IMG/VR virus record: IMGVR_UViG_3300025880_000030
Location: 1 to 41,686 of that record
Source: a virus
Length of the DNA: 41,686 bases
Direction: 5' to 3' (one strand)
Under the pieces are notes generated by a model. It was not told where the DNA came from, searched no databases, and saw only the letters and a list, made by a program, of their open reading frames with translations. Made by a program: the position numbers and the translations under genes. The first letter of the stretch is position 1. Each line of letters starts with the position of its first letter. Positions 2,796 through 36,976 of this stretch are shown one piece after another.

Positions 2796-5700
2796 TTATT
2801 TTGATTCTAAGACTTTTATTTTATTTTTTAATGAATCTATTTCTAGTTTTAATTCTTTAATTGCTTCAAGAAGTATAGGTGGTATACCTTGATGTCTCAT
2901 TGATAACATACCGTTTTCATTTTCTCTTACAAGTTCTGGGATTATCTTCTGTACATCTTGGGCTATAAATCCTACATCTTCTTTTATTTTTAATATACTA
3001 TCACTTTCTTTCCAATCAAAAGTAACTCCTTGAAGTTTCATTGCTTTATTTAAAGCTGACTCAATAGGTTTTATGTTCTCTTTTAATCTGATATCTGATG
3101 GAGATCCATATGCTATTATATCTGCATCTGCTGTTAATGTACCCGTACTACCAAATTCAAATTTTTCATTACCACTATGTAATATAAAAATATCATCACC
3201 ATCCCCTACAATATGAGCACCACCTCCTACTTCATCTATATCTCCTATTTTGAAGGTTCCACTAGTTGGATTTACTAAAAGACCACGATCTCCTGTATCT
3301 TCCACCTCCATATTACCATTTACATTAAATGTTCCTGCTGTAAAAGTTAAATCACTTTCCCCATTTATAACAGCAGACGTGTTTCCTCCAAGTATTACTC
3401 TATTAGTACCAGCATTAGTATATGTTGTTATACCTGCATTACTTCCTGTTGTACCTTTAGCACCTGTAGCACCTTTAGTACCTGGGGAACCTATACCTGT
3501 AATACCTTGAGCACCTTTAGCACCTGGTGCACCTTTAGCACCTGTAGCACCTTTAGAACCACCTCCACCTTGTGAACCTGTTATACCTTGAGCACCTTTA
3601 GCACCTGGTGCACCTTTTTGTCCGTTTAAACCACTTATACCTTGAGCACCTTTAGCACCTCCACCACCTTGTGAACCTGTAATACCTTGTGAACCTAGCT
3701 CACCTTTTTGTCCTTTAGCACCATTACTTCCATTAACACCTTTTTGTCCTTTTTGTCCTTTAGCACCTTGTGAACCTGTTATACCTTGTGCCCCCGTAGC
3801 ACCTTTAGCACCTTGAGAACCAGTTATACCTTGTGCCCCTGTTGCACCTTTCTGTCCCGTAGCACCTTTAGCTCCTTGTGAACCAGTTATACCTTGTGAA
3901 CCTGTAGCACCTTTAGCACCTTGAGAACCTGTAGTACCTTGTGAACCACCGCCACCTTGTGCACCTGTTATACCTTGTGCACCTGTTGCTCCTTTAGCAC
4001 CTGTTGCTCCTTTAGCACCTTGTCCACCTTGTGCACCTGTTATACCTTGAATACCTTGTGAACCTGTAGCACCTTTAGCACCTTGTGAACCTGTAGTACC
4101 TTGGGTACCTGTTGCTCCTTTAGCACCTTGCCCACCCTGTGAACCTGTTATACCCTGAATACCTTGAGCACCTGTAGCACCCTTTTGTCCTGTTGCTCCT
4201 TTAGCACCTTGTGAACCTGTAGTACCTTGAGTACCTGTTGCTCCTTTAGCACCTTGTCCACCTTGTGAACCTGTTATACCTTGAGCACCTGTTGCACCTT
4301 TAGCACCTTGAGAACCCGTTGTACCCTGAGAACCAGTAGCACCTTTAGCTCCTTGTCCACCTTGCGAACCTGTTATACCTTGTATTCCTTGTGCACCTGT
4401 ATTTCCTGTATTTCCTTTTTGTCCTTTTTGTCCCTTAGCACCCTGTCCACCTTGTGAACCTGTTATACCTTGAATCCCTTGAGCACCAGTAGCACCCTTA
4501 GCACCTTGTCCACCTTGTGAACCTGTTGTACCTTGAATACCTTGAATACCTTGTGCACCTGTTGCTCCTTTTTGACCAGTTGTACCTTGTGTACCAGTTG
4601 CACCTTTTTGTCCCGTAGCACCTTTAGCTCCCTGTCCACCTTGTGAACCTGTTATACCTTGGATACCTTGAATACCTTGAGAACCTTGTGCCCCAGTAGA
4701 ACCTTTAGCACCTTGTCCACCTTGTGAACCAGTAAATCCTTGAATACCTTGAGCACCAATAACACCTTTTTGGCCTGTTGTTCCTTGAATACCTGTAGCA
4801 CCCTTTTGTCCTGTTGCTCCTTTAGCACCTTGTGAACCAGTTATACCTTGTGCCCCCGTAGCACCTTTAGCACCTTGTGAACCAGTTATACCTTGTGCAC
4901 CTGTTGCTCCTTTAGCACCTGTTGCACCTTTAGCACCTTGTGAACCTGTAGTACCTTGAGTACCTACTTCACCTTTTTGTCCTTTTTGTCCTGTTGTACC
5001 TTGGGTACCAACTTCACCTTTTTGTCCTTTTTGACCCGTTATACCTTGAGCACCTGTAGCACCTTTTTGTCCTGTTGTACCTTGTGAACCAGTATTACCT
5101 GTTGAACCCTTATCTCCTCTATCACCTGTAGCAACAAATGATACAATTACATCTTCATTATTTGAAAATGGAGATGCTGTAGATGATGCTTGATCATTAA
5201 CATTTACTGTCCACCAACCTGTATTATTAGTTAGATTAGATATACTGAATAATATATATTGTGTAGCGTCTGTTCTATTTGATACTCTAACGTGACCTTT
5301 AACAGCGGATGTAACAGCATCTATTGATTGTAAAAACTCGTCTATATTACTAGCATTATCATCTGTAGAATCAATATACATCAAAGTTGATGCATTTTGA
5401 GTAGAACTATTTAGTCGTACTTTACCTGTTCCTGGATCTGTTCCTGATGTTGATGTTGAAAATGTATAGTCGAATGTAGCACCACCAAATGAACCATCTG
5501 TTCCTTGAGCACCTATTTCGCCTTTTTGTCCTTTTTGACCTGTTGTTCCTTGAGCACCTTTTTGACCTGTTGCTCCTTTAGCACCTGTAGTACCTTGAGT
5601 ACCTGTTATACCTTGAACACCAACTTCACCTTTTTGTCCTTTTTGTCCTGTTGTACCTTGAGCACCTTTTTGACCTGTTGCTCCTTTTTGACCTGTAGTA

Positions 5701-7421
5701 CCTTGAGTACCTGTTATACCTTGAACACCAACTTCACCTTTTTGTCCTTTTTGACCTGTTGTTCCTTGTGTACCAGTTGCTCCTTTAGCACCTTGTGAAC
5801 CTGTGGTACCTTGAGTACCCGTAATACCCTGAGCCCCAACTTCACCTTTTTGTCCTTTTTGACCTGTAGTACCTTGAATACCTATTGAACCTTTTTGTCC
5901 TGTTATACCTTGAGCACCTGTTGAACCTTTTTGTCCTGTTATACCTTGTGCTCCCGTAGCACCTTTAGCACCTTGAGAACCAGTTATACCTTGTGCTCCT
6001 GTATCACCTTTGGCACCTTGTGAACCTGTAGTACCTTGAATACCCTGTGCTCCTGTAGCACCTTTAGCACCTTGAGAACCAGTTATACCTTGTATTCCTT
6101 GTGCACCTGTTGCACCTTTTTGTCCTGTAGTACCTTGTGAACCTGTAGCACCTTTTTGACCTGTAATACCTTGAATACCTTGTGAACCTGTATCTCCTTT
6201 ATCACCTTGTTCTCCTGTTATACCCTGAGTACCAATAACACCTTTTTGACCGGTATTACCTTGAACACCAATTTCACCTTTTTGTCCTGTTGTACCTTGG
6301 GTACCTGTTATACCTTGTATTCCTTGTGCACCTGTTGCTCCTTTTTGGCCTGTAGTACCCTGTGAGCCTGTAGCACCTTTAGCACCTTGTCCACCTTGTG
6401 CACCTGTTATACCTTGAATACCTTGAGCACCAACTTCACCTTTTTGTCCTGTTGTTCCTTGAGTACCTGTAGTACCTTGAACACCAATTTCACCTTTTTG
6501 GCCTGTAGTACCTTGAGAACCAGTTATACCTTGAATACCTTGTGCACCTGTTGCACCTTTAGCACCTTGTGAACCAGTTATACCTTGAGCACCTGTTGCT
6601 CCTTTTTGGCCTGTATCACCCTTAGCACCTTGTTCTCCTGTATCACCTGTTATACCTTGTGTACCTGTAGTACCTTGAGTACCTGTGATACCTTGTATTC
6701 CTTGGGCACCTGTTGCGCCTTTAGCACCTTGTGAACCTGTAGTACCTTGAGTACCGGTTGTACCTTGAGTACCGGTTGTACCTTGAGTACCGGTTATACC
6801 TTGAATACCTTGTAAACCTTGTTCACCTGTTATACCTTGTGTACCTGTATTACCTTGAACACCAATTTCACCTTTTTGTCCTTTTTGACCTGTTTCACCT
6901 GTTATACCTTGAGCACCATCTTCACCTTTTTGTCCTTTTTGTCCTGTTGTACCCTGTAAACCAGTAGCACCTTTAGCACCTTGAGAACCAGTTATACCTT
7001 GTATCCCTTGTGCACCTGTTGCGCCTTTAGCACCTTGTGAACCTGTAGTACCTTGAGTACCAGTTATACCTTGTATCCCTTGTGCACCTGTTGCGCCTTT
7101 TTGTCCTGTAACACCTTGAGCACCTTTTTGTCCTATTATACCTTGAATACCTTGAACACCAACTTCACCTTTTTGACCGGTTGTACCTTGAGTACCAGTT
7201 ATTCCCTGTATTCCTTGTGCACCTGTTGCGCCTTTTTGTCCTTTTTGACCTGTTGTTCCTTGTGTTCCCTGAAGTGATAGGTTTGATCTCTTATATATGT
7301 TCCCGTTGTTATCTAATACTAAGATATCATTTACTGTAGTTGTAAGGGGAGTAGATGATAAGTTTAATGTGTTTAAAGTTGCGTCTGATCCGCTAACTAT
7401 AAGTTTCTTCCAGTTTGGCAT
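2796..7421 (-). CDS. Lys-rich collagen-like tail fibre with S74 intramolecular chaperone
   Basis: This is a 1541-residue modular fibre. Residues 1-51 are an N-terminal tag ([19 protein letters not shown]) shared with two other fibres here. Residues 52-643 are Gly-X-Y repeats rich in [12 protein letters not shown] and KGE/KGD. A globular beta domain ([10 protein letters not shown]... to GDRGDKG) spans about 645-765. A second Gly-X-Y tract runs about 766-1326, followed by a beta-rich segment ([13 protein letters not shown]). A C-terminal peptidase S74 chaperone starts near 1440: S1442-D-I-R-L-K1447-ENI has the Ser/Lys spacing of the self-cleaving endosialidase chaperone. The protein ends in a heptad-like coiled coil ([19 protein letters not shown]). 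It is expected to trimerise, fold from the C-terminal chaperone and shed it. Proline is almost absent from the repeats, and Lys at Y positions makes the shaft basic. The likely role is host contact. Confidence 0.88.
3444..5126 (-). repeat. Gly-X-Y triplet tract, distal shaft of the Lys-rich fibre
   Basis: Nine-base triplet codons in long runs encode about 560 residues of G-X-Y. Favoured blocks are [12 protein letters not shown] and GGQGAKG. The DNA is a patchwork of 18- to 36-base near-copies, so alleles of different length are likely. Boundaries are approximate. Confidence 0.85.
5127..5490 (-). other. Globular insert domain (copy A) between collagen tracts
   Basis: This segment of about 120 codons reads [14 protein letters not shown], then a DPGTGK..L-N-S..QNAS motif, DDNA, an [12 protein letters not shown] strand, NNTGWW, and ends N-N-ED-V-IVSF[10 protein letters not shown]. 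It is clearly homologous to the two inserts in the 2123-residue fibre. The conserved GWW/AWY and F-x-N-x-[ED]D-[VI]-I-[VI]-SF elements suggest a compact beta fold that may act as a joint or binding knob. It is known from other collagen-like phage proteins but has no assigned function that I know of. Confidence 0.7.
5493..7268 (-). repeat. Gly-X-Y triplet tract, proximal shaft of the Lys-rich fibre
   Basis: The tract encodes about 590 residues of uninterrupted G-X-Y with frequent QKG-EVG/EIG (KGE) pairs, which in collagens form axial Lys-Glu ion pairs. Three 18-base units follow one another at 6743-6796; the third differs from the first two by one base. These direct repeats are candidates for slippage. 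Confidence 0.85.
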
Positions 7422-7535
7422 GTTAATCTTTTTTATTATGGTTGGTTACTCAAATGAGTCCACTTCCGTTATGGCCTATAATATGGTTATACATATGAAT
7501 GTAAGAAGAAATAGTCAATAAGACAAAATATGTTT
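7422..7535 (-). other. 114-base spacer, largest gap in the window
   Basis: This spacer lies between the small propeller stop and the Lys-rich fibre start. It is AT-rich, has no credible ORF, and lacks the ATATTTATAA leader motif. A short inverted repeat (ACTCA-AA-TGAGT at 7449-7460) is present but too small to call a terminator. The coding strand contains CATATTATAGG about 60-70 bases before the fibre ATG, a possible but unsupported promoter. Confidence 0.4.
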
Positions 7536-8387
7536 TTAAACTGTATATTGTTCTAAATACTCAGTGGTTTGTCGTAATAAATAAAATTTAGTTAGATCGG
7601 TTTTATATTGGATTGCTACAGGTGAACCAGTATTTGGTATTACTTCATAACTAGTAGCAGATGCAGTAGAAATATCATAAGCTGTTGATAAAGTGTATAG
7701 ATATTTCCAATAGATAATTGGACTATTGAGGTCACTACCCATAACATACATTTTAGTACCACTATCAGTAAAAGTAAGTGATCTTGGAAGTTGGATTTCA
7801 GAACTAACATCTAATGCTTGACCATAAGATAAGGTAGATATTTCCCAAGCAGTAGACAGGTCACATTCTATTATTTTTTCATTTACGTCTTCTATAATAT
7901 AGGCTTTAGTACCACTACTATTAAAATTTAAATTTATACATGTTGCGGAGGTGGTATTTCCCACTAACCCAAATGAAGAAGATGATATTCTTGTATCTAT
8001 ATTCCATGCAGTAGTTAAAGTATGTTGGTAAATTTTATTAGCATTTAAATTTCCTTCAACTAAAACATAACAACTAAGACCATCAGGTTTAAAAGAAATG
8101 CCACAGGGGTATATAGAGTCCCAATCTGTGTCTGTTGATGAAGTATAATCTGTTTCAACAATACTACTAACATCCCATGCTGTAGGGACTTTCCATTCAA
8201 ATAAACTATCAGATGGTGTACCTGCAGTACACATACCATAAAATCGAGTACCATCAGGTTTAAAAGTACCAGCTGATACTATTGTAAAAGGTGGACTAAG
8301 GTCAACATAATCATCTCGTGTTGGATTTGATGGAGTTCCACCAATACCACTGGATTGTAGTACTCTAAAAAAGTTTATATTACTCAT
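7536..8387 (-). CDS. Small beta-propeller, candidate receptor-binding or fibre-tip protein
   Basis: The 283-residue protein is built of repeating blades. F-K-PDGT-R-FY (42-50), F-K-PDG-x-x-CY (99-107), F-NSSGT-K-AY (155-163), F-TDSGT-K-MY (206-214) and Y-KTDLT-K-FY (261-269) each precede a strand pair. TAWDVSS, TAWNIDT, TAWEIST and TAYDIST lie at 69, 126, 179 and 235, a period of 53-57 residues. This fits a five-bladed propeller. The ATG at 8387 overlaps the stop of the 2123-residue fibre gene as ATGA, so translation is probably coupled and the two proteins likely meet in the virion. No catalytic motif is seen. A receptor-binding role is inferred from position and fold type. Confidence 0.6.
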   Translation of the reverse strand: MSNINFFRVLQSSGIGGTPSNPTRDDYVDLSPPFTIVSAGTFKPDGTRFYGMCTAGTPSDSLFEWKVPTAWDVSSIVETDYTSSTDTDWDSIYPCGISFKPDGLSCYVLVEGNLNANKIYQHTLTTAWNIDTRISSSSFGLVGNTTSATCINLNFNSSGTKAYIIEDVNEKIIECDLSTAWEISTLSYGQALDVSSEIQLPRSLTFTDSGTKMYVMGSDLNSPIIYWKYLYTLSTAYDISTASATSYEVIPNTGSPVAIQYKTDLTKFYLLRQTTEYLEQYTV

Positions 8388-11300
8388 TTTATTTTTCTTC
8401 TCAGTTCTTCTATTTCACCTTGCTGTTCTTTAATAGCTTCAATTAATAAAGCAACCATTTTATCATATTTAACAGCTTTATACCCATTATCTCTTGTAGT
8501 AACTAATTCGGGTAATATAGCTTCAATTTCTTGTGCTATAACTCCTATATCTGCTCCTTCATTACCATGAATATGAATTTTTTCTTCTTTGGTTAGTGGG
8601 GTCCAATCAAAATACACACCATTTATTTGTTTTACTTTATCTACAGCCCATGGGATAGGTCTTATATTTTCTTTTAGTCTTTTATCTGATGTAGAATATG
8701 CTATTACATCATTTTTAGCTCTAATTAAACCATCTGTAGAATTAGTACCTGTAAAAGAAGAGCCAACATCTAAAGAATTTTTAACTGCTAAAAGATTACC
8801 TGTAAAAGTTAAATCAGACACTCCATCTATAGTGGCAGATGTATTTCCTCCTCTTATTAATCTGTTAGTACCAGCATTAGTATATGTTGTTATACCTGCA
8901 TTTTGACCTGTAATACCTTGAGCACCTTTAGTACCGGGGGCACCTATACCTGTAATACCTTGAGCACCTTTTGTACCTGTAATACCTTGAGCACCTTTTG
9001 CACCTGTAATACCTTGAACACCTTGAGCTCCTGTTCCACCTCCTGGAATTGACCAGTAGTAACTAGTACCATCATAATAAACACCTAATACATCAGTACC
9101 ACCACTTGCTGTTGTTGTAGTATAAGTACTACCCCCTATAATAACGGATCCACCTGGAAGTGTTACAGTATAGGTTGTACCTGATCCTTGTTTAACTAAA
9201 AGTACACCTGTATCACCTGTTACCCAACCTGACATTGCTAATGTTTTATTACCATTTAAAGTAACTTTAGCATTTGAACCTAATGATGAATTAAATGTAA
9301 TAGTAGATGTTGCATTACTTAATGTTTGTTGGTCAATAGTTATTTTACCATCAGACATTTGTAAATCTTGTTGCATTACAACATTTTTATGCAGGGTAAT
9401 ATCAGTAGCATCGTATTTTATTATGTCTGTTTCTGTACCACCTGGAGTTTTGGATATAAATTTGAATTTACCAAAATTTGTTCCAGTATCCCCTTGAAAT
9501 GCAAAATCTGTATTATCAGCACCATTACCTTTTATCTCAACACCATTACCACCATCTCTATAAATATTTAATTCACCATCAGTTCCATTCGCACCTTTTA
9601 TACTAAGGTTACTAGTACTAAATGTTAAATTTCCTTCAGCAACAAGTCCACCAGAACCATCTGATGTTAATACTTCATTATTATTTCCAGGTGCTGTTGG
9701 ATTAGTTCCTTGAGCACCTTTTGTACCTGTAATACCTTGAGCACCTTTTGTACCTGTAATACCTTGAGTACCTGTAATACCTTGGGCACCTTTATCACCA
9801 ACTTCTCCTACACCTGTAGTACCTTGTATACCTTGAATACCTTGTGTTCCTTGTGTACCAGTAATACCCTGTGAACCAGTTATACCTTGAGAACCCTTAC
9901 TACCTGTTAAACCTTGGGTACCTTGAGTACCTTGAGTTCCTGTTATACCCTGTGAACCAGTTATACCTTGTGTTCCTTGTGTACCAGTAATACCTTGAGT
10001 TCCTTGTGAACCAGTTATACCTTGTGCTCCTGTAATACCCTGAGTACCTTGTGTTCCTGTTATACCTTGTGTCCCTTGTGTTCCCGTTATACCTTGAGTA
10101 CCTGTAATACCTTGGGTACCTTGAGTTCCTTGTGTACCAGTAATACCCTGTGAACCCGTTATACCTTGTGATCCTGTAATACCCTGAGAACCATCTGTAC
10201 CTTGAATACCAGTTATACCTTGAGTACCATCCGTACCTTGTGTACCTGTAATACCCTGTGTTCCATCTGTTCCTTGAGTACCTGTAATACCTTGACTACC
10301 TGTAATACCCTGAGTACCTGTTGTCCCTTGTGTTCCTGTAATACCTTGAGTACCAGTTGTTCCTTGTGTTCCGTCTGTTCCTTGGGTTCCTTGTGTTCCA
10401 TCTGTTCCTTGGGTACCATCTGTACCTTGAGTACCTGTAATACCTTGGGTACCTTGAGTACCTTGTGTTCCTGTTATACCCTGAGAACCAGTAATCCCCT
10501 GAGCACCATCTGTACCTTGTGTTCCTGTAATACCCTGTGAACCTGTTATACCTTGAGTACCTTGGGTACCTGTAATACCTTGTATTCCTTGAGTACCAGT
10601 TGTTCCTTGTGTTCCATCTGTACCTTGTGTTCCTTGTATTCCTGTTATACCCTGAATACCCTGAGTACCTTGTGTTCCTGTTATACCTTGAGTTCCTTGT
10701 GTACCATCTGTACCTTGAGTACCTGTTATACCTTGAGTTCCTTGTGCACCAGTAATACCTTGTGAACCAGTTATACCTTGAGTACCTGTAGTACCTTGAG
10801 TTCCATCTGTTCCTTGTGTTCCTGTTATACCTTGAGTTCCTTGTATACCTGTTATACCCTGTGAACCAGTAATACCCTGTGAACCAGTAATACCCTGAGC
10901 ACCATCTGTTCCTTGAGTACCCTGTGTTCCATCTGTTCCTTGTGTTCCATCTGTTCCTTGAGTACCAGTTGTTCCTTGTGAACCTGTAATACCCTGAATA
11001 CCTTGTGTTCCTGTTATACCTTGAGTACCCGTAGTACCTTGAGTTCCATCTGTTCCTTGTGCTCCATCTGTACCTTGAATACCAGTTATACCTTGAGTAC
11101 CAGTTGTTCCTTGAGTACCCGTTGTTCCTTGCGTTCCATCTGTACCCTGTGTTCCTGTTATACCCTGAGTACCTGTAGTACCTTGTGTTCCTGTTATACC
11201 TTGTGCTCCATCTGTACCTTGAATACCAGTTATACCTTGAGTACCAGTTGTTCCTTGTGAACCTGTTATACCTTGAATACCTTGAGTACCTGTGATACCC

Positions 11301-14300
11301 TGTAAACCTTGTTCGCCTGTTATACCCTGTAAACCTTGTTCACCTGTTATACCTTGTGAACCTGTTATACCTTGGATACCTTGTGAACCTGTTATACCTT
11401 GAATACCTTGTGTTCCTGTTATACCTTGAGAACCGGTTATACCTTGAATACCTTGTGTTCCATCTGTTCCTTGTATACCTGTAATACCCTGTATACCTTG
11501 AATACCTACTTCACCTTTTTGTCCTTTATCTCCTCTATTACCTACAGTTGTAAATGATATAATTATATCTTCATTGTTTGTAAATGGGTTTGTAGTTGAT
11601 GATGATTGTTCATCTAGATCCAATGACCACCACCCAGTATTATCTGTTAAATCTGATATTGCAAATAGTATAAATTGTGTAGCGTCTGTTCTATTTGCTA
11701 TTCTAATATATCCCTTTATTGCTGATGTTACAGCGTCTATAGATAAGAGGAATGATTGAATTGAAGTACCATTATCGTCCGTAATATCTACATACCCAAC
11801 AGTAGAAGCGTTTTGTGTAGTATTATTTAATCTTATTTTACCAGTTCCAGGATCTGCTGCTGCTGTTGATGTATCAAAAGTATAATCAAAAGTAGCACCA
11901 CCAAAGGCACCATCTGTACCTTGTGTTCCTTCTTCACCTTTAGTACCTGTTATACCTTGTGTCCCTTGTGTACCAGTAATACCCTGAGCACCTGTTATAC
12001 CTTGAGCACCTGTTATACCTTGTGCTCCTGTTATACCCTGAGAACCAGTAATACCTTGAGTACCTGTTGTTCCTTGAATACCAGTAACCCCTTGTGTACC
12101 TGTAGTACCTTGAGTTCCATCTGTTCCTTGTGTTCCGTCTGTACCTTGAATACCAGTTATACCTTGTAAACCTGTTGTACCTTGAGTACCATCTGTACCT
12201 TGAGTACCTATTATACCTTGTGTTCCTTGTGTTCCTGTAATACCTTGTGTCCCTTGTATTCCTGTTATACCTTGTATTCCTTGTGAACCAGTAGTACCTT
12301 GAGTTCCATCTGTACCCTGTAAACCTTGTTCACCAGTAATACCTTGAATACCCTGTGAACCAGTTGTTCCTTGTAAACCTGTAATACCTTGAATACCTTG
12401 TGCTCCGTCTGTACCTTGAGTACCCGTTGTACCCTGTGTTCCATCTGTTCCTTGAGTACCTGTAATACCTTGGGTTCCATCTGTTCCTTGAGTTCCATCT
12501 GTACCCTGTGTTCCTGTTACACCCTGTAAACCTTGTTCGCCTGTTATACCTTGTATTCCTTGAGTTCCATCAGTTCCTTGAGTACCATCTGTACCTTGAG
12601 TACCAATAATACCCTGAATACCTTGTGAACCAGTAATACCTTGTGAACCAGTAATACCCTGAGCACCTGTTATACCTTGAGCACCTGTAGTACCTTGAGT
12701 ACCATCTGTTCCTTGAGTACCATCTGTTCCTTGAGTACCATCTGTTCCTTGGATACCCTGTAAACCTTGTTCACCTGTTATACCTTGAGCACCAGTTATA
12801 CCTTGTGGTCCTTGAGTACCTTGTATACCCTGAGCACCATCTGTACCTTGAGTACCTTCTATACCTTGTACACCTTGAGTACCTTGTGTTCCGTCTGTTC
12901 CTTGCGTTCCATCTGTACCTTGTGTTCCGTCTGTTCCTTGAATACCAGTTATACCTTGAGTACCAGTTGTTCCTTGTAAACCTGTTATACCTTGAATACC
13001 CTGAGCACCATCTGTACCTTGAGTACCTGTTGTGCCTTGTGTTCCATTAGTACCTTGAGTACCTGTTACACCTTGAGAACCTGTTACACCTTGAGAACCA
13101 GTAATACCTTGTGAACCAGTAATACCTTGAGTCCCGTCTGTACCTTGTGTTCCTGTTATACCTTGTGCTCCATCTGTTCCTTGTGCTCCATCTGTACCTT
13201 GAGTACCTGTTGTACCCTGAATACCTTGAATACCTTGTGATCCTGGGACTGTTGAATCTTCACCTGTTGTACCTTGAGTACCCTGTGTTCCTGTTATACC
13301 TTGAGAACCAGTAATACCTTGTGAACCTATAATACCTTGAGCACCATCTGTACCTTGGGCACCATCTGTACCTTGAGTACCCTGAGTACCATCTGTACCT
13401 TGTGTACCAGTTATACCTTGTATTCCTTGTAAACCTTGTTCACCTGTAATACCTTGTATTCCTTGAGAACCATCTGTACCATCCGTACCTTGTGTACCTG
13501 TAATACCCTGTGCTCCTTTAGTACCAGTTATACCTTGTGCACCATCTGTTCCTTGAGAACCATCTGTACCTTGAGAACCAACTTCTCCTTTTTGTCCTTT
13601 TAAACCACTTGTACCTTGAGTACCATCAATTCCCTTAATCCCTTGAACACCTTGAGAACCTTGTGTTCCAGTTATACCTTGAATACCTTGTGAACCAGTA
13701 ATACCCTGTGTACCTGTTGTACCTTGAGAACCTGTTATACCTTGAATACCTTGTGTACCATCTGTACCTTGAGTACCAGTAATACCTTGAACACCTTGAG
13801 CTCCTTTATCACCTGCATCACCTGTTACTTGAAAAGAAACTATTATGTCATCTCCATTAGCAAATGGACTTGATGTAGAAGATGCTTCTGAGGCTATAGT
13901 TAAAATGTACCAGGCATTTGTATCTTGTCCTGCTACTATAGTAATTTGATATAATATAAAATCGTCAGTATTACCTTTTTCTGATATTCTAACGTGTCCT
14001 TTTATTGTTGAAGTAGCGTTATCAATAGTTGTCATGAACTGAACAATGCTGTTTCCATTGTCATCCGTGGCATCTAAATATAAGCTTGTTGCGGCATTTT
14101 GGGTTGAATTATTTAATTGAACAATTCCTGTGCCTGGGTCTATTGGGGGAGAAGGTACTGTTGTACTAAATGTATAATCAAAGGAAGCACCTCCAAAATT
14201 ACCTGCTGTACCTTGAGCACCTTGTATTCCTTGTATACCTTGTGGGCTTTGAATACCTTGAATACCTTGAATACCTTGTGCACCTGTTATACCTTGTGCA

Positions 14301-14755
14301 CCTTGAGCACCTACTTCTCCTATACCTATTGTACCTTGTATACCTTGAGTACCCTGTACTCCGGTTATACCTTGAATACCTTGAGTACCATTTCCACCTG
14401 TTATACCTTGTGCACCAATTATACCTTGTATACCTTGTGCACCTGTTATACCTTGTGTTCCAGTTACACCTTGAGTACCTTGGGTACCATCTGTTCCTTG
14501 TGTTCCGTCTGTTCCTTGAGTACCTGTGATACCTTGAATACCCTGGGCACCTTGAGCGCCTGAAGCATTATCTATCCATTGTGAACCTGATACTGTAGAG
14601 GATAAAACTTGTCCTAAAGTACCTACGTTTCCATCTGTATCGTGAATTGATTGGGAGACTAAAAGAGACCCACTAATATTTGTATCATTATCTACCCCTA
14701 AGGTATTTAGTAAAGCATCTGATCCGCTTACTATTATTTCTCTCCAATTTGCCAT
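8384..14755 (-). CDS. Asp-rich collagen-like tail fibre with S74 intramolecular chaperone
   Basis: At 2123 residues this is the longest protein in the window. Residues 1-65 carry the MANWREIIVSGSDALLNTL tag. Gly-X-Y tracts cover about 66-187, 313-948, 1074-1680 and 1906-1948. Two homologous globular inserts sit at about 189-312 and 950-1073. A beta-rich region covers 1681-1905, followed by an [13 protein letters not shown] segment and the S74 chaperone with S2023-D-K-R-L-K2028-ENI and a C-terminal heptad stretch (LLIEAIKEQQGEIEELRRKI). Shaft triplets are mainly TQG, TDG, ITG, IQG and EQG, so acidic residues dominate and Lys is rare, the reverse of the 1541-residue fibre. A Gly-to-Ser break lies at residue 170. 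It is likely a trimeric host-contact fibre that loses its chaperone by self-cleavage. It follows a leader motif and overlaps a propeller gene. Confidence 0.88.
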   Translation of the reverse strand: MANWREIIVSGSDALLNTLGVDNDTNISGSLLVSQSIHDTDGNVGTLGQVLSSTVSGSQWIDNASGAQGAQGIQGITGTQGTDGTQGTDGTQGTQGVTGTQGITGAQGIQGIIGAQGITGGNGTQGIQGITGVQGTQGIQGTIGIGEVGAQGAQGITGAQGIQGIQGIQSPQGIQGIQGAQGTAGNFGGASFDYTFSTTVPSPPIDPGTGIVQLNNSTQNAATSLYLDATDDNGNSIVQFMTTIDNATSTIKGHVRISEKGNTDDFILYQITIVAGQDTNAWYILTIASEASSTSSPFANGDDIIVSFQVTGDAGDKGAQGVQGITGTQGTDGTQGIQGITGSQGTTGTQGITGSQGIQGITGTQGSQGVQGIKGIDGTQGTSGLKGQKGEVGSQGTDGSQGTDGAQGITGTKGAQGITGTQGTDGTDGSQGIQGITGEQGLQGIQGITGTQGTDGTQGTQGTDGAQGTDGAQGIIGSQGITGSQGITGTQGTQGTTGEDSTVPGSQGIQGIQGTTGTQGTDGAQGTDGAQGITGTQGTDGTQGITGSQGITGSQGVTGSQGVTGTQGTNGTQGTTGTQGTDGAQGIQGITGLQGTTGTQGITGIQGTDGTQGTDGTQGTDGTQGTQGVQGIEGTQGTDGAQGIQGTQGPQGITGAQGITGEQGLQGIQGTDGTQGTDGTQGTDGTQGTTGAQGITGAQGITGSQGITGSQGIQGIIGTQGTDGTQGTDGTQGIQGITGEQGLQGVTGTQGTDGTQGTDGTQGITGTQGTDGTQGTTGTQGTDGAQGIQGITGLQGTTGSQGIQGITGEQGLQGTDGTQGTTGSQGIQGITGIQGTQGITGTQGTQGIIGTQGTDGTQGTTGLQGITGIQGTDGTQGTDGTQGTTGTQGVTGIQGTTGTQGITGSQGITGAQGITGAQGITGAQGITGTQGTQGITGTKGEEGTQGTDGAFGGATFDYTFDTSTAAADPGTGKIRLNNTTQNASTVGYVDITDDNGTSIQSFLLSIDAVTSAIKGYIRIANRTDATQFILFAISDLTDNTGWWSLDLDEQSSSTTNPFTNNEDIIISFTTVGNRGDKGQKGEVGIQGIQGITGIQGTDGTQGIQGITGSQGITGTQGIQGITGSQGIQGITGSQGITGEQGLQGITGEQGLQGITGTQGIQGITGSQGTTGTQGITGIQGTDGAQGITGTQGTTGTQGITGTQGTDGTQGTTGTQGTTGTQGITGIQGTDGAQGTDGTQGTTGTQGITGTQGIQGITGSQGTTGTQGTDGTQGTDGTQGTQGTDGAQGITGSQGITGSQGITGIQGTQGITGTQGTDGTQGTTGTQGITGSQGITGAQGTQGITGTQGTDGTQGTQGITGTQGTQGIQGITGIQGTQGTDGTQGTTGTQGIQGITGTQGTQGITGSQGITGTQGTDGAQGITGSQGITGTQGTQGTQGITGTQGTDGTQGTDGTQGTQGTDGTQGTTGTQGITGTQGTTGTQGITGSQGITGTQGTDGTQGITGTQGTDGTQGITGIQGTDGSQGITGSQGITGSQGITGTQGTQGTQGITGTQGITGTQGTQGITGTQGTQGITGAQGITGSQGTQGITGTQGTQGITGSQGITGTQGTQGTQGLTGSKGSQGITGSQGITGTQGTQGIQGIQGTTGVGEVGDKGAQGITGTQGITGTKGAQGITGTKGAQGTNPTAPGNNNEVLTSDGSGGLVAEGNLTFSTSNLSIKGANGTDGELNIYRDGGNGVEIKGNGADNTDFAFQGDTGTNFGKFKFISKTPGGTETDIIKYDATDITLHKNVVMQQDLQMSDGKITIDQQTLSNATSTITFNSSLGSNAKVTLNGNKTLAMSGWVTGDTGVLLVKQGSGTTYTVTLPGGSVIIGGSTYTTTTASGGTDVLGVYYDGTSYYWSIPGGGTGAQGVQGITGAKGAQGITGTKGAQGITGIGAPGTKGAQGITGQNAGITTYTNAGTNRLIRGGNTSATIDGVSDLTFTGNLLAVKNSLDVGSSFTGTNSTDGLIRAKNDVIAYSTSDKRLKENIRPIPWAVDKVKQINGVYFDWTPLTKEEKIHIHGNEGADIGVIAQEIEAILPELVTTRDNGYKAVKYDKMVALLIEAIKEQQGEIEELRRKIK
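8912..9040 (-). repeat. Short Gly-X-Y tract near fibre tip
   Basis: About 43 residues of G-X-Y (GAQGVQG, then TKGAQGITG copies, with one GIGAPG stutter) lie between the beta-rich region and the S74-linked module. Boundaries are approximate. Confidence 0.75.
9716..11536 (-). repeat. Gly-X-Y tract 3 of the Asp-rich fibre
   Basis: About 607 residues are dominated by GTQ, GTD, GIT and GIQ triplets. Related triplet blocks recur with synonymous changes, so the protein repeat is more regular than the DNA. This suggests past duplication followed by codon drift. Confidence 0.85.
11537..11911 (-). other. Globular insert domain (copy B)
   Basis: It reads [53 protein letters not shown], a D-NTGWW strand and EDIIISF to GNRGDKG. 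It is closer to copy A (5127-5490) than to copy C: NRTDATQ and NTGWW are identical between A and B. Confidence 0.7.
11912..13819 (-). repeat. Gly-X-Y tract 2 of the Asp-rich fibre
   Basis: About 636 residues of Gly-X-Y with frequent TDG. It contains three perfect copies of an 18-base unit at 12693-12746 (CCTTGAGTACCATCTGTT on the plus strand, encoding GTQGTD in the fibre). One non-collagenous interruption, G-E-D-S-T-V-P, lies near 13250. Confidence 0.85.
13820..14194 (-). other. Globular insert domain (copy C)
   Basis: This is the most divergent of the three inserts: FGGASFDYTFSTTV, DPGTGIVQLNN, ATDDNGNSIVQF, TIKGHVRISEK, a D-TNAWY strand and DDIIVSF to GDAGDKG. It replaces NRTDATQ and GWW of the other copies with different residues. 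Confidence 0.7.
14195..14560 (-). repeat. Gly-X-Y tract 1 of the Asp-rich fibre
   Basis: About 122 residues of Gly-X-Y start right after the N-terminal tag. It contains the single-residue Gly-to-Ser break (AGC codon at 14246-14248) within IQGIQ-S-PQG. Confidence 0.82.
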
Positions 14756-15205: not shown

Positions 15206-17308
15206 TTATGAATAAATGTAAATGTCTTCATTATCTGCTACAAATATATTACCTTTTTTCTGGTATTTAGCTACTACTCCTGAAGGAACATTTACTCCTG
15301 TTCCACCTTCTACTACAGCTGCCATAAATGCATCTGGTGTATAAGCTTCTGTACTTGGATCAAATGATCCTGTCATACTCCATCTTGTAGTTGCTGCATC
15401 ATAAGCAAATGCTTCACCATTTGTAGGACCATCTTGTTGTACTACAATACCACCATCTCCAACTGCTGTTGAACCTGATGCCATTCTAATAAATCTATCA
15501 GCTACGTCTAAGTTTTGTGTGTTTTGGAAACTTGCTGTACCTGCAACTGTTAAGTTACCTGATACTACTGCATTTCTTCCAATTTGAACATCTCTTGTTA
15601 TAGTTAAATCCTGTCCAATTGTTACATCATCTGGTAAACCAATAGTTAAAGCAATATTTCCACCAATTGCTTGAGCGGAAGTATCTGATACTGTAACTTC
15701 GTTTGTTGTACCTGCAAATGTTGCAGTTGCGTTACCTTGTACTGCCGTGTTAGCAGTTGAACCATAATTTACTGCAATTGTTGGAGATGAACCTTCACCT
15801 GTATTAGATCCAATTGTTACACCAGTTCCAGATCCAAGTGTAGCAACATAGTTACCTGTTGTATCTGTTCCTAAAGCAACTGAGTTTGCAGCAACACCTG
15901 CTGCTTCTGTTGCAGTAGCGGCGTTACCTGTTGTATCTTGATTAAAGGTTGGGAAAGTATTTCCTGCACCTGTTAAATCTTTATTTGTTAATGCTTGTGT
16001 AGCAGCTAACTGAACAATATTACTATTTGTAATACTTGCTATTTTAGTAGCTGTATCAGCATTACCAGTTACATCACCAGTTAAATCACCTACAAATGCT
16101 GTAGAAGTTACACTTGATAATCCAACTAATGTTGTAGCAGAAGTACCTAAATCTATTTCTGTAGTACCTACTGTTACACTATCGTTTGTAAGGGCAGTAT
16201 TTGGAATTCCTGATAAGTTAGCTTCAACTACATTAATACCACTTGCACCTACTGCAATTGTATTATCTGCTGCTTCAACTGTAACTTGTATACCTGCTGT
16301 TCCTCCATTATAAGAGAAATCTGCGATACCATTACCATCTGTTAGTGGGTTAGGAACTGCATCAGATCCTGATACTACTCCTGTACCAGCTAATATTGTA
16401 GCTGCTGTAATTGATCCTCCTAATGAAATATCATTACCTGCAATTGTAATACCATCGTTTGCTAACATTCCGTTAGTAACACCTAGTGCTTTTACTCTTA
16501 GAGTATCTGTAGCTATTTCAAGTGAAGAATCATCTACGTTTACTGCTAATGCTGTACCAGCACCACCTGATAAACCTGCTCCTGCTACTGAAGATGCAAT
16601 TTGAGTTGCTGTAATTCCAGCATCTGCTACTTTTACACCACCTGCTCCTACTGTTAATGTAGAACCATCTGCTTGTACTGCAAATGTTGCTGCTGCTGCT
16701 CCATCGTAAGGACCACCTGTTAAACCATTACCTGATGTTAAATCTGGTAGGTTTGTTGTTCCAACAAATGAACCACTGAATGAACCAGTTGCTTCCACAT
16801 CAGTTAATACTAAACCATCAACTGTTCCAGCTGTTGCACCTAACGATACTGATGTATTACCTAATGTTACTGCACTGTTTGATAATTGTGAATTTGTAAC
16901 GTTTGCAAGTGAACCACCTAATGTAATAGTTGGGTTAACACTGTCTCCATCTGAAGTTAATGTTATTCCATTTTCATTACCAGTTGCTGATACAGATTGT
17001 ACTGTACCTGAGCCTAATCCTGAGGCTGCAATACTAATACCACCTGCTGTATTTGTTACAGAGATATTTGCACCACCAGTTAATGTTGCTAATACAGGAT
17101 CTGCACCAGTACTACCAATTAATAATTGACCGTTTGTAGCTTGACCTAGTGCAGTAATTGCGCCAGTTCCACTACCTAAAAGTACACCACCATCTGTAAG
17201 AGATTGTGCACCTGTACCACCCGAGGCTACGGGTAAGGCTGTATCTAAAGATAATGCTGATAAGTCAGCTGATGATCCGGATACAATTACTTTTTTCCAT
17301 GTTGCCAT
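15206..17308 (-). CDS. Repetitive beta-structured tail fibre or virion protein
   Basis: The 700-residue protein has very low aromatic and charge content. It opens with the tag MATWKKVIVSGSSADLSALSL shared with both S74 fibres. Repeating Ser/Thr/Gly/Ala/Val stretches follow: VASGGTGAQSL, NGLTGG, GDLTGDVTGNADTATK and VSGNLTVAGTASF. Elements such as GxLTGDVTGNADTAT are typical of phage long tail-fibre shafts that form beta-helical or trimeric beta folds. The C-terminus (VAKYQKKGNIFVADNEDIYIYS) is more polar and aromatic and could be a cap or tip. No S74 chaperone or collagen repeat is present, unlike its two tag-sharing relatives. A TATAAATG box lies 35 bases before its ATG. Confidence 0.75.
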   Translation of the reverse strand: MATWKKVIVSGSSADLSALSLDTALPVASGGTGAQSLTDGGVLLGSGTGAITALGQATNGQLLIGSTGADPVLATLTGGANISVTNTAGGISIAASGLGSGTVQSVSATGNENGITLTSDGDSVNPTITLGGSLANVTNSQLSNSAVTLGNTSVSLGATAGTVDGLVLTDVEATGSFSGSFVGTTNLPDLTSGNGLTGGPYDGAAAATFAVQADGSTLTVGAGGVKVADAGITATQIASSVAGAGLSGGAGTALAVNVDDSSLEIATDTLRVKALGVTNGMLANDGITIAGNDISLGGSITAATILAGTGVVSGSDAVPNPLTDGNGIADFSYNGGTAGIQVTVEAADNTIAVGASGINVVEANLSGIPNTALTNDSVTVGTTEIDLGTSATTLVGLSSVTSTAFVGDLTGDVTGNADTATKIASITNSNIVQLAATQALTNKDLTGAGNTFPTFNQDTTGNAATATEAAGVAANSVALGTDTTGNYVATLGSGTGVTIGSNTGEGSSPTIAVNYGSTANTAVQGNATATFAGTTNEVTVSDTSAQAIGGNIALTIGLPDDVTIGQDLTITRDVQIGRNAVVSGNLTVAGTASFQNTQNLDVADRFIRMASGSTAVGDGGIVVQQDGPTNGEAFAYDAATTRWSMTGSFDPSTEAYTPDAFMAAVVEGGTGVNVPSGVVAKYQKKGNIFVADNEDIYIYS

Positions 17309-18428: not shown

Positions 18429-20312
18429 TTAAAATCTTATTGTCGTCATTACTTCACTAAAATTACCAACACCTGATAACCCGATGATGTTAAAATTAGA
18501 ACCTAAATTGAAAGAAGTATCAATAGTTATATTACCAGAATTTCCAGTACCATCAAAGTTTTTACCTTCTACTGTAATTAGATTTATACTTGTTTTATCA
18601 CTATACCCACCTACTCCTTCATTTAGTCCTGCAGGTACTGTTATAGAATAATCATCTTCTTGGTTACTAGAATATATTGATAAATTACTTAATTGGGATG
18701 AACCATTTAATCCTCCTGGAGCTAAAATTGATAAAGCTGTAATATTCCCTCCAGATTGGGTAACTGTTGTACCAAATAAAGTTCCGTAAACAGCTTCACT
18801 ACCTGAAGTTCCACCTGTATCGGCACAAGTAAAGGTAAATGTATTTGTTGTTGCTGCTGTAATATCGGCTACTTGGTAATCTACATTAGCTGCTCTAAGT
18901 ACTACTTTATCTCCAACACTTAATCCATGAGAGTTAAAAGTAACAACCATACTAGTTGATGTTCTAGCCCATGCTACTGTAAATAAGTTTGTAGTTGCTG
19001 TTGCATATATTTTATAATCTGTACCTGAAGAATCAACTAAATATCTATATTGTGTGTTATATACATTTCCTGATCCACCACCTGAACCTTCTGTTCCTTG
19101 TATACCCTGAATACCTTGTGCACCTGTTATACCTTGTGATCCCGCACCTGTTATACCTTGAATACCTTGTGTTCCAGTTATACCTTGTGTTCCTGTTATA
19201 CCCTGTGCTCCTGTTATTCCTTGTATACCTTGTGCACCTGTTATACCTTGTACACCTTGTATACCTTGTACGCCTTGAGCACCTTGAGGTCCTACTACAG
19301 TTGAATCTTGACCGGTTATACCTTGTATACCTTGTATACCTTGTATTCCTTGTGTTCCAGTTATACCCTGTGCTCCAGTTATACCTTGTGATCCTGCACC
19401 TGTTATACCTTGTATACCTTGTACGCCTTGAGCACCTTGAGGTCCTACTACAGTTGAATCTTGACCAGTTATACCTTGTATACCTTGTACACCTTGGGCA
19501 CCTTGTGCTCCATCATTACCATCACCTCCTGTTATACCTTGAATACCCTGAATACCTTGAATACCCTGCGAACCTAATAAACCATCTGTTCCTTGAATAC
19601 CCGTTATACCTTGGATACCTTGTGCACCTGTTATACCTTGAATACCTTGAGAACCATCTGCACCTGTTCCATCAGTACCTTGAGTACCTTGTATACCGGT
19701 TATTCCTTGTGTTCCTGTAGTACCTTGGATACCTTGTGTTCCATTAGTACCATCCGTACCTTGAGTACCTTGTGCCCCATCATTACCATCACCTCCTGTT
19801 ATACCTTGAGCACCTGTTATACCTTGAATACCTTGTGTTCCTACACCTGTTATACCTTGAGTACCTGTAATACCTTGAATACCTTGTGTACCCGTTGTTC
19901 CCTGTATACCTTGTGAACCTAATCCACCCGTTATACCTTGGGTACCTTGAATACCTTGAATACCTTGGCTACCGTTTGTTCCTTGAATACCCTGAGTACC
20001 TGTTATACCTTGAATACCTTGAGCACCTTGTGATCCTCCAGCGGGTGCACCTTTAAAAAGCTCTCCATCAGGACCAATTAAGGTCATTGGGTAATTTAGT
20101 TCAGCTCCTGTAGCTGCATTTTCTTCTACTCCCTTTAAAGCTACAGAGCCTGTGGTTTTAAAAGATCCTGATATTTCTACTGATCCTGAAAGATTAAATT
20201 TTGTAAATCTACTATCTGTGAAAGCATCAACAATTTGTTTTACTTGTGCTGCCTCTACTGTTTGTCCCGTTACTATTCCTGAGGGACTTAAGGATGTTGG
20301 TTCTGCTGCCAT
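18429..20312 (-). CDS. Neutral collagen-like fibre protein
   Basis: The 627-residue protein has an N-terminal region (MAAEPTSLSPSGIVTGQTVEAAQVKQIVDAFTDSRF, then LSGSVEISGSFKTTGSV) that resembles virion-attachment segments. Gly-X-Y runs over about 93-407, mainly IQG, ITG, TQG and AQG and nearly uncharged. A beta-rich C-terminal domain covers 408-627 (FTVAWARTSTSMVVTFNSHGLSVGDKVVLR and beyond). Two copies of the interruption G-Q-D-S-T-V-V-G-P-Q break the collagen register. There is no S74 chaperone, so any chaperoning would be by the C-terminal domain or another protein. It differs from the two S74 fibres in tag, charge and tip. It is probably a separate fibre or whisker; trimer formation is inferred from the repeat. 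Confidence 0.78.
   Translation of the reverse strand: MAAEPTSLSPSGIVTGQTVEAAQVKQIVDAFTDSRFTKFNLSGSVEISGSFKTTGSVALKGVEENAATGAELNYPMTLIGPDGELFKGAPAGGSQGAQGIQGITGTQGIQGTNGSQGIQGIQGTQGITGGLGSQGIQGTTGTQGIQGITGTQGITGVGTQGIQGITGAQGITGGDGNDGAQGTQGTDGTNGTQGIQGTTGTQGITGIQGTQGTDGTGADGSQGIQGITGAQGIQGITGIQGTDGLLGSQGIQGIQGIQGITGGDGNDGAQGAQGVQGIQGITGQDSTVVGPQGAQGVQGIQGITGAGSQGITGAQGITGTQGIQGIQGIQGITGQDSTVVGPQGAQGVQGIQGVQGITGAQGIQGITGAQGITGTQGITGTQGIQGITGAGSQGITGAQGIQGIQGTEGSGGGSGNVYNTQYRYLVDSSGTDYKIYATATTNLFTVAWARTSTSMVVTFNSHGLSVGDKVVLRAANVDYQVADITAATTNTFTFTCADTGGTSGSEAVYGTLFGTTVTQSGGNITALSILAPGGLNGSSQLSNLSIYSSNQEDDYSITVPAGLNEGVGGYSDKTSINLITVEGKNFDGTGNSGNITIDTSFNLGSNFNIIGLSGVGNFSEVMTTIRF
19092..20036 (-). 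repeat. Gly-X-Y tract of the neutral collagen-like fibre
   Basis: About 315 residues. It contains an 83-base near-perfect direct duplication (19254-19336 and 19407-19489). Confidence 0.85.
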
Positions 20313-35134: not shown

Positions 35135-36976
35135 TTATAAGTTTACTACCCTTCCTTTTATATCAATGTTTGGGTATTTTAATTCAAATATACTTGGATC
35201 CAAAGAAGGGAATATTGTTCCATTTTGATTTGCACCATCCATATCGTAAGCCCATTCTGAATATCCTGATGTTACTCCTGCTATGTTTGTTATTTTTACT
35301 TTTTTAACGGTTTGTACTCCTTCTAAAGCATCTAATAATACAAAAAGATCGGGAACAATTATAGGTTGATTTAATTGCCATTTATCTATCATAAAGTAAT
35401 CTTTTAGTACTGTTATGCACCTTTCAATTACTTCATTACTATTAAAATTAGGGTAAGTTATTACTTCAAATTGAATTCCAAAGTTAATAATAAAAGCATC
35501 CTTAATACTAATAGTATCACCAATCATTCTATATTGGTTAATATATGTACGTAAGTTTTGTTTTAATGCGTTTGATGCTGTTGTTAATTTATCATTTAAA
35601 TTATTAGTTAAAATATATAAATCTAATGTTGTATTGGCGTCTTCAGCGTTTGGTTTTTGTGTTAATGCCTTAGATATAACACCATATTTAGGAGGCATAC
35701 TTAAAGCTCTTACTAAATAATCATCAGCTGTTACATTTCTCATTTGTGTAGAAAACTGTGATATTGAATTTTGTCTAATTTCTTCAATTGTATCTCCATC
35801 TTGACCACCACTTGCTGCTATAATGTTGTTTGCTGCTGTAGAGTCAAATATATAATTAGCTAATGTTGGTTCTAAACCACCCTTATTAAAGGTAATGTTT
35901 GAAGTGTTTAAATCTGTAACTGTGTTTGATAGTACATTTGAACTAACTCCTCCACCTGTATAATATCTAACTGTTAGATTAGTATTAGTAGGGGCAACAC
36001 CATAAGTATTTGTAAATATAAAATTAGTTGGACTAAATGCTGTGGTTAGTTTATCTTGTTGAAAAGGTAAACCTAAACCTACATTCATAGAATTTGGTAT
36101 TACATCTTCTGTTGTATCTTCAGGGTTACCAGCACCAAATTGTAACTGTAATTGGCTTGGAGTTATAAATCGAGTAGCAAATCTATTTTGTACGTTTTTA
36201 GTCTGTAATAGAAAGGGTGCATCTGTATCCTGATAGGTATTAGGGCTATTTATATTAGTATTTCTTAAACTATCATATACTAAATCTTGAGCTAAATAAT
36301 CTACTTCATACCATCTATTTCCATCTGAATCTGTAACATCTAATATTCCTGCTATGTTAGGAGCGTTTAGATTTATTGTAGAAAATTCTTGAGGGGGACC
36401 AAAAGTGTATGTTTCAGTATTTATAGTACCTGAGACTGCTTTTCTTGTTTTTCGTAGTAAATAATATACTGGAACACCCCCACTTGTTTGTGCTACTGTT
36501 ACTTCAGTAGGATCAGATGAACTAGATACTTCAAAATTAACTGGGTTTTCTATAGTAAAGTTTACAGGATTTCCAGATCTTGTTGATATTTTAGTATTTG
36601 CTGCAATAGTTAAAGCATATGAATAATCAGGTTGAGAAATATTATCTATTGTTATAGCAGGCAATTGTTGAAAAAATTCAATTGTAGTTTCAGATAAACC
36701 TGTTGCTTTTGGTTTATAACCGTACATATAAGCTAAATCATATAAACTATCATTTTGTCTAGCATATTGTATAAAATTTTCTTGAATTTGGTTATCAAGA
36801 TAAAAAGATAAAACATCACTAACATATGCTGCTTGTTCTATAAACATCATTCCAGGTGATGTTGCAGAAAAATCAGTATAAGTTGATGGGAAATATGTTT
36901 GAGAATAGTTTATTAACTGGTTCCTAAATTCCGGGAATTCTTTATTTATATAATTTATATTTCTTCTTATTGCCAT
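35135..36976 (-). CDS. Baseplate wedge protein, gp6/J-like
   Basis: The 613-residue protein begins MAIRRNINYINKEFPEFRNQLINYSQTYFPSTYTDFSATSPGMMFIEQAAYVSDVLSFYLDNQIQENF. This is the conserved N-terminal helix-rich block of T4 gp6 and related baseplate-J proteins. Later segments (DGDTIEEIRQNSISQFSTQMRNVTADDYLVRALSMP, and TTASNALKQNLRTYINQYRMIGD then V.DLF.LLDALEGVQTVKKVKI) match the middle and C-terminal baseplate-J features. gp6 forms the ring that dimerises and holds the wedges together. The ATG overlaps the gp25-like stop codon as TAATG, so the two are probably translationally coupled, as in T4 where gp25, gp6 and gp53 assemble in one wedge. Length is close to that of T4 gp6 (660). Confidence 0.88.
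   Translation of the reverse strand: MAIRRNINYINKEFPEFRNQLINYSQTYFPSTYTDFSATSPGMMFIEQAAYVSDVLSFYLDNQIQENFIQYARQNDSLYDLAYMYGYKPKATGLSETTIEFFQQLPAITIDNISQPDYSYALTIAANTKISTRSGNPVNFTIENPVNFEVSSSSDPTEVTVAQTSGGVPVYYLLRKTRKAVSGTINTETYTFGPPQEFSTINLNAPNIAGILDVTDSDGNRWYEVDYLAQDLVYDSLRNTNINSPNTYQDTDAPFLLQTKNVQNRFATRFITPSQLQLQFGAGNPEDTTEDVIPNSMNVGLGLPFQQDKLTTAFSPTNFIFTNTYGVAPTNTNLTVRYYTGGGVSSNVLSNTVTDLNTSNITFNKGGLEPTLANYIFDSTAANNIIAASGGQDGDTIEEIRQNSISQFSTQMRNVTADDYLVRALSMPPKYGVISKALTQKPNAEDANTTLDLYILTNNLNDKLTTASNALKQNLRTYINQYRMIGDTISIKDAFIINFGIQFEVITYPNFNSNEVIERCITVLKDYFMIDKWQLNQPIIVPDLFVLLDALEGVQTVKKVKITNIAGVTSGYSEWAYDMDGANQNGTIFPSLDPSIFELKYPNIDIKGRVVNL

Follow-up and report, generated by a model that had tools for sequence, protein, structure and literature searches.

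Collagen-like fibers of phages are usually treated as inert spacers, and phages of the T2/S16 type pair a gp37 fiber with a separate gp38 adhesin. Viral and bacterial collagens have little proline at the Y position of their Gly-X-Y triplets and carry many charged, Gln, and Thr residues (PMC3368898). Collagen peptides of opposite charge, moreover, have been used to build heterotrimers (PMC11203499, PMC7824840).

Here, we analyzed the viral record IMGVR_UViG_3300025880_000030 over its whole length of 41,686 nt (41.7 kb; hereafter, the window), which contains two neighboring giant fibers, F1 and F2. Judged from its sequence, the locus is a three-gene tail-fiber cassette of immutovirus-like phages, made up of the acidic F2, an NFFR protein with an exchangeable body, and the basic F1. 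Among relatives, the predicted shafts have had their repeats rewritten, yet each retains the sign of its charge. We found no report of such an oppositely charged phage fiber pair in the open-access literature.

Origin and gene content of the locus

The gene order of the window is that of Flavobacterium phage immuto, with the fiber cassette following the baseplate genes; synteny with the immuto baseplate genes places the collagen-like fiber genes in the tail/baseplate block. At 35135-36976, the window encodes a baseplate wedge protein with 42.5% identity to that of immuto along its full length. Closeness at the genus level was judged from this one protein and gene order, and because its 42.5% identity points to a more distant relation, we limit the label to "immutovirus-like". 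The data thus suggest an immutovirus-like phage fairly distantly related to Immutovirus. It is probably a marine phage, with a marine member of the Bacteroidota as its probable host. The features of the window that concern us are the following.

2796-7421, minus strand: F1, basic collagen-like fiber of 1541 aa (Gly-X-Y count, Pfam); tag 1-51, tract 52-648, insert 649-765, tract 766-1328, then a C-terminal region with S74 at 1442-1499
5127-5477, minus strand: F1 insert, a 117-aa beta domain breaking the collagen (model mean pLDDT 97.6)
7536-8387, minus strand: NFFR protein of 283 aa, a putative swappable adhesin with the conserved start MSNINFFRVLQ and a repeat-bearing body
8384-14755, minus strand: F2, acidic collagen-like fiber of 2123 aa (Gly-X-Y count, Pfam); tag 1-65, tracts 66-190, 312-954, 1072-1685, and 1906-1952, inserts 191-311 and 955-1071, S74 at 2023-2086
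11549-11893, minus strand: second insert of F2, with 66% identity to that of F1
13826-14185, minus strand: first insert of F2, with 48% identity to that of F1
15206-17308, minus strand: putative structural protein of 700 aa, encoded upstream of F2 in the module and bearing a version of the fiber tag (MATWKKVIVSGSSADLSAL)
18429-20312, minus strand: F3, third collagen-like protein, 627 aa, with 103 triplets and a net charge of -10

An earlier, sequence-only reading had the coordinates and lengths of F1 and F2 right; it overlooked F3 and the NFFR gene. By their domains, F1 and F2 are collagen-like phage fibers with a putative S74 chaperone end. Both match Pfam Collagen (PF01391; E values of 1.8e-162 and 2.1e-201) and Peptidase_S74 (PF13884; 70.1 and 56.3 bits, curated cutoff of 22), and both close with an S74 domain bearing SDxRLKEN (SDIRLKEN and SDKRLKEN). 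Given a rise of 0.86 nm per triplet, their triple helices are predicted to be about 330 and 405 nm long, respectively. The N-terminal tags, previously described as the same, are similar and not identical (one reads MANWREIIVSGSDALLNTL), and the version on the 700-aa neighbor means that the phage carries this fiber tag on three proteins or more. That neighbor had no match in Pfam or PHROG. Insert domains and S74 do occur in both fibers, as had been noted; the number of inserts differs, with one in F1 and two in F2. F3 has tracts without Lys and has no S74.

The insert domain had no clear Pfam relative, and a fold search against the PDB returned no match with E <0.001 (best second-look Z of 5.8), so that no family was assigned. 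The best matches of its model among predicted viral proteins reach TM scores of 0.8 to 0.97, and many of these proteins are collagen-like. Insert-like domains are found in tailed phages, Synechococcus phages, and giant viruses (Marseillevirus LCMAC102, Klosneuvirus, and Indivirus), and relatives of the ~117-aa insert are encoded in 440 candidate viral stretches. A tree of insert domains was uninformative on F1/F2 ancestry: the inserts intermix, and those of a fused fiber described below (L095) resemble each other.

Two shafts of opposite charge

The shaft of F1 comprises 386 Gly-X-Y triplets (K88 R1 D9 E17) with a net charge of +63, divided between tract 52-648 (+21, 199 triplets) and tract 766-1328 (+42, 187 triplets). 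That of F2 comprises 472 triplets (K15 R1 D56 E12; tracts of 40/213/204/15 triplets) with a net charge of -52. This calculation of net charge and X/Y composition bears out the opposite charge that had been claimed for the two fibers, and the contrast recurs in relatives. Lys is confined to Y in F1, where it fills 23% of Y positions, and likewise in F2. The Asp residues of F2 also lie mostly at Y, as GTD, whereas most relatives carry their acid at X. Tandem arrays run all along both genes.

Lys/Arg-Gly-Asp/Glu junctions are enriched in F1 (17 observed versus 5.5 expected from triplet shuffling), which makes it plausible that Lys-Gly-Glu/Asp pairs stabilize this proline-poor helix. The KGE and KGD pairs noticed earlier are therefore a real enrichment, and their candidacy as stabilizers holds up, such over-representation being expected for a helix poor in proline; most of the 88 Lys residues nonetheless have no partner inside the chain. 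Proline is indeed nearly absent from X/Y (2 residues in F1 and 1 in F2, ~0.1 to 0.3% of positions). We reject this poverty as a special trait, since related cassette fibers span 0 to 11.6% (about 12%) proline. Low proline is common in the group, and its scarcity at Y has already been described for collagens of viruses and bacteria (PMC3368898), so it needs no explanation of its own.

The cassette and its charge contrast in relatives

Relatives were collected via the insert domain, the S74 end, and a 344-aa neighbor, that is, independently of shaft charge. The order F2-type fiber, NFFR gene, F1-type fiber was found on eight contigs from seven lineages: the window; L086; L107/L110; L116; L102; L106 and L122 (one contig); and L108. 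Contig L087 looks like the same phage as L086. F2-type tags read MA(N/Q)W(R/K)(E/K), NFFR starts M(S/A)(N/T)xNFFR, and F1-type tags MPNWKK.

F2-type shafts are net acidic in all seven lineages. The last tract of the F1-type fiber is basic in every lineage (+9.5 to +22.4 per 100 triplets), and each F1-type fiber has a distal tract more basic than its proximal one; taken as a whole, however, the F1 shaft of L108 comes out slightly acidic (-1.9 per 100 triplets). By comparison, the last tract of 14 other MP(N/S)WKK-tagged fibers without the cassette does not exceed +4.8 per 100 and is mostly near zero, L095 being the exception. The charge step at cassette pairs ranges from +15.5 to +39 per 100 triplets (n = 7), and that of 19 other adjacent collagen pairs lies mostly within 9 of zero, with two at +12.7 and +18.9 (Mann-Whitney test, P = 6 × 10−6, a value that overstates the independent evidence because the lineages are related). 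Some F2-type shafts (L128:9428-12685 and L106:9443-13447) have 44 to 48% charged X/Y positions in GEK/GDK runs and are near polyampholytes.

The sign of the charge outlasts the triplets that produce it. The window and L086 are closely similar in their tags and first inserts, yet their main F2 tracts, both acidic, share 17% of triplets versus 18% after shuffling; for the next F2 tract, the values are 24 and 18%. Usage has moved from GTQ/GTD in the window to GLQ/GEQ in L086, such that acid comes via GTD in one and GEQ in the other. F1 is more conservative between these two phages (41% of triplets shared versus 24% shuffled) and falls near the shuffled level with more distant members. That the sign of the charge has survived such turnover speaks for selection acting on bulk charge, although it falls short of proof. 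The contrast is thus probably useful to the phage. Common ancestry of all module phages could mean that the sign is partly inherited, mainly in F1.

An exchangeable NFFR gene between the fibers

In the window, the NFFR start codon and the F2 stop overlap by 4 nt, and in all seven lineages, the NFFR start lies at or over that stop. NFFR proteins have a conserved start of ~8 to 12 residues, the first ~8 common to all, followed by divergent bodies. L107 and L110, which have 88% of the triplets of the main F2 tract in common, share a 20-residue NFFR start followed by wholly different bodies. The body of L107 is a DUF5122 beta-propeller, those of L110 and the window have a repeat other than that of L107, and L102 and L108 share yet another. 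A recent body swap is seen between two near-identical phages (L171:7090-8268 and L110:7137-8438), which have the same 20-residue start and wholly different bodies. The window's own NFFR protein gave nothing above cutoff against Pfam, PHROG, or the PDB, a search for relatives of its body found none, and its structural model was too poor for use (pLDDT of 37). Receptor-binding parts are typically exchanged in this way between phages that are nearly identical elsewhere, which suggests that the NFFR protein is an adhesin.

Relatives with a single fiber

A relative with only one of the two fibers and no loss of fitness or contact had been named as a case that would refute the charge pairing. Single-fiber relatives were found in three forms among the contigs (L184-L186, L193, and L095). 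In the neighbor-gene tree, L184-L186 form the sister group of the window plus L086 (100/100 for all five) inside the module clade (92/90). No NFFR start was detected on their contigs (56 to 87 kb), and insert matches were marginal only. Their F1-type gene comes directly after the gene that corresponds to that of the 700-aa protein, and its shaft is short (26 to 110 triplets) and neutral. This pattern fits a coupled loss of partner and charge, but it may be simple truncation, as these fibers also lack the distal half. One and the same tagged fiber start is joined in these contigs to different C-terminal parts, in fibers of 284, 1049, and 679 aa (L186:1295-2146, L184:4296-7442, and L185:6953-8989, respectively). 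Outside the module clade, L193 has a single long acidic fiber with no Lys.

In L095 (5858-13969), one fiber of 2704 aa occurs with no separate F2 gene and no NFFR gene. It opens with F1-like residues, continues with ~35 that are F2-like, and ends in an F1-like C terminus (compare F1 of L108). Its tracts carry, in order, charges of -8, -2, -3, +8, and +17, so that the basic distal half is kept. It looks like a fusion of both fiber genes, acidic then basic.

What the charge contrast may do

We tentatively prefer a division of labor between the two shafts, a reading that we regard as possible rather than probable and place ahead of shaft contact and drift. Both fibers would be homotrimers, with Gly-X-Y helices holding the chains together and Lys-Gly-Glu/Asp pairs adding strength; the S74 chaperone would start folding, and the shared tag would dock the fibers on the baseplate. 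The C-terminal part of F1, the most basic part in seven of seven lineages, would form a cationic shaft, on the assumption that this end faces the host, and would stick weakly to the envelope of a Bacteroidota host, which is polyanionic. The acidic F2 would be a nonsticking rod carrying or positioning the NFFR adhesin, whose seat on F2 is likewise assumed. The fused fiber of L095 matches the cassette order, acidic then basic, without NFFR. Against a simple division of labor, F2 of L106 is nearly a polyampholyte and F1 of L108 is slightly acidic overall. Seawater screens charge beyond about 0.4 nm, which also counts against a division of labor based on charge.

Alternatively, mutual attraction could bring the basic and acidic shafts to lie alongside one another or to fold against each other in a parked state. 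The sign contrast kept in seven lineages despite shaft turnover is in keeping with such contact, as are its disappearance together with the partner in L184-L186, nested in the module clade, and the many charges unpaired within each chain. However, neither parallel nor antiparallel staggers do better than shuffled sequences in five phages; in 10 comparisons of axial charge register between F1 and F2, between 36 and 186 of 200 shuffles scored at least as high as the real shafts. The totals are also unmatched (-114 versus about +30 in L107 and -37 versus +27 in L106/L122), and no consistent match of tract length or total charge between partners emerged. L095 keeps its basic distal half without a separate F2 gene, the charge loss in L184-L186 is confounded with that of the distal half, and sticky fibers would risk clumping of virions. 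Without matched magnitudes or a register above shuffles, the side-by-side arrangement proposed by the sequence-only reading is unsupported, and we consider contact between the shafts unlikely.

Neutral drift, which we also find unlikely and rank after shaft contact, would have arrays growing by slippage and the two genes amplifying different founder triplets, leaving the contrast as an inherited accident of the clade. The tandem arrays of both genes, the placement of the module phages in one clade, and the great variation in size of partner charges all agree with this. Yet the acid sign of F2 survives complete rewriting, with other residues at other positions, and other adjacent collagen pairs tend to similar charge. 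Moreover, mutational bias could not easily give opposite signs to two genes on the same strand.

More doubtful again is an evolved complementary pair, its signs selected, packed on the virion as a heterotypic collagen bundle with the adhesin between. Mixed AAB/ABB trimers of F1 and F2 chains with cross-chain Lys-Glu/Asp pairs are highly improbable: the two genes have tag, insert family, and S74 in common, and heterotrimers have been made from oppositely charged peptides (PMC11203499, PMC7824840), but the differing inserts and tract lengths (199/187 with one insert in F1; 40/213/204/15 with two in F2) leave no common register in the window, and the excess of Lys-Gly-Glu/Asp junctions within each chain is what homotrimers would show.

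Two adjoining shafts here appear to have maintained their bulk charge whatever the exact repeats, as a trait tied to a gene cassette with a swappable adhesin-like gene. The role of shaft charge in adsorption or fiber packing thereby becomes a testable question, for which relatives with no partner, a fused fiber, or a near-polyampholyte fiber are natural contrasts.

Comparison with known systems

The nearest described phage is immuto (Immutovirus, MW353176), with which the window shares a syntenic baseplate block and the wedge protein; at the corresponding place, we saw no collagen-like fiber and no NFFR protein among the immuto products. The shafts resemble those of EPclA/EPclB of E. coli prophages in their long Gly-X-Y tracts, with Lys, Gln, and Thr at Y and proline scarce at Y (PMC3368898), and in most relatives of the window fibers, the acid lies mostly at X, as in fibers of that type. 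They differ in that proline is nearly gone from X too, in the Asp at Y of F2, and in the presence of two giant adjoining fibers of opposite net charge. The C-terminal domain of F1 and F2 is like the Peptidase_S74/endosialidase-type chaperone (PF13884) in position and in SDxRLKEN; here, as far as the sequence tells, it is joined to collagen shafts and not to a tailspike. The cassette also recalls gp37-gp38 of T2/S16 in that a small exchangeable protein is encoded directly 3' of a long fiber gene. Unlike that system, to which no sequence relation was found, at least one NFFR body is a beta-propeller, and an oppositely charged second fiber gene comes next.
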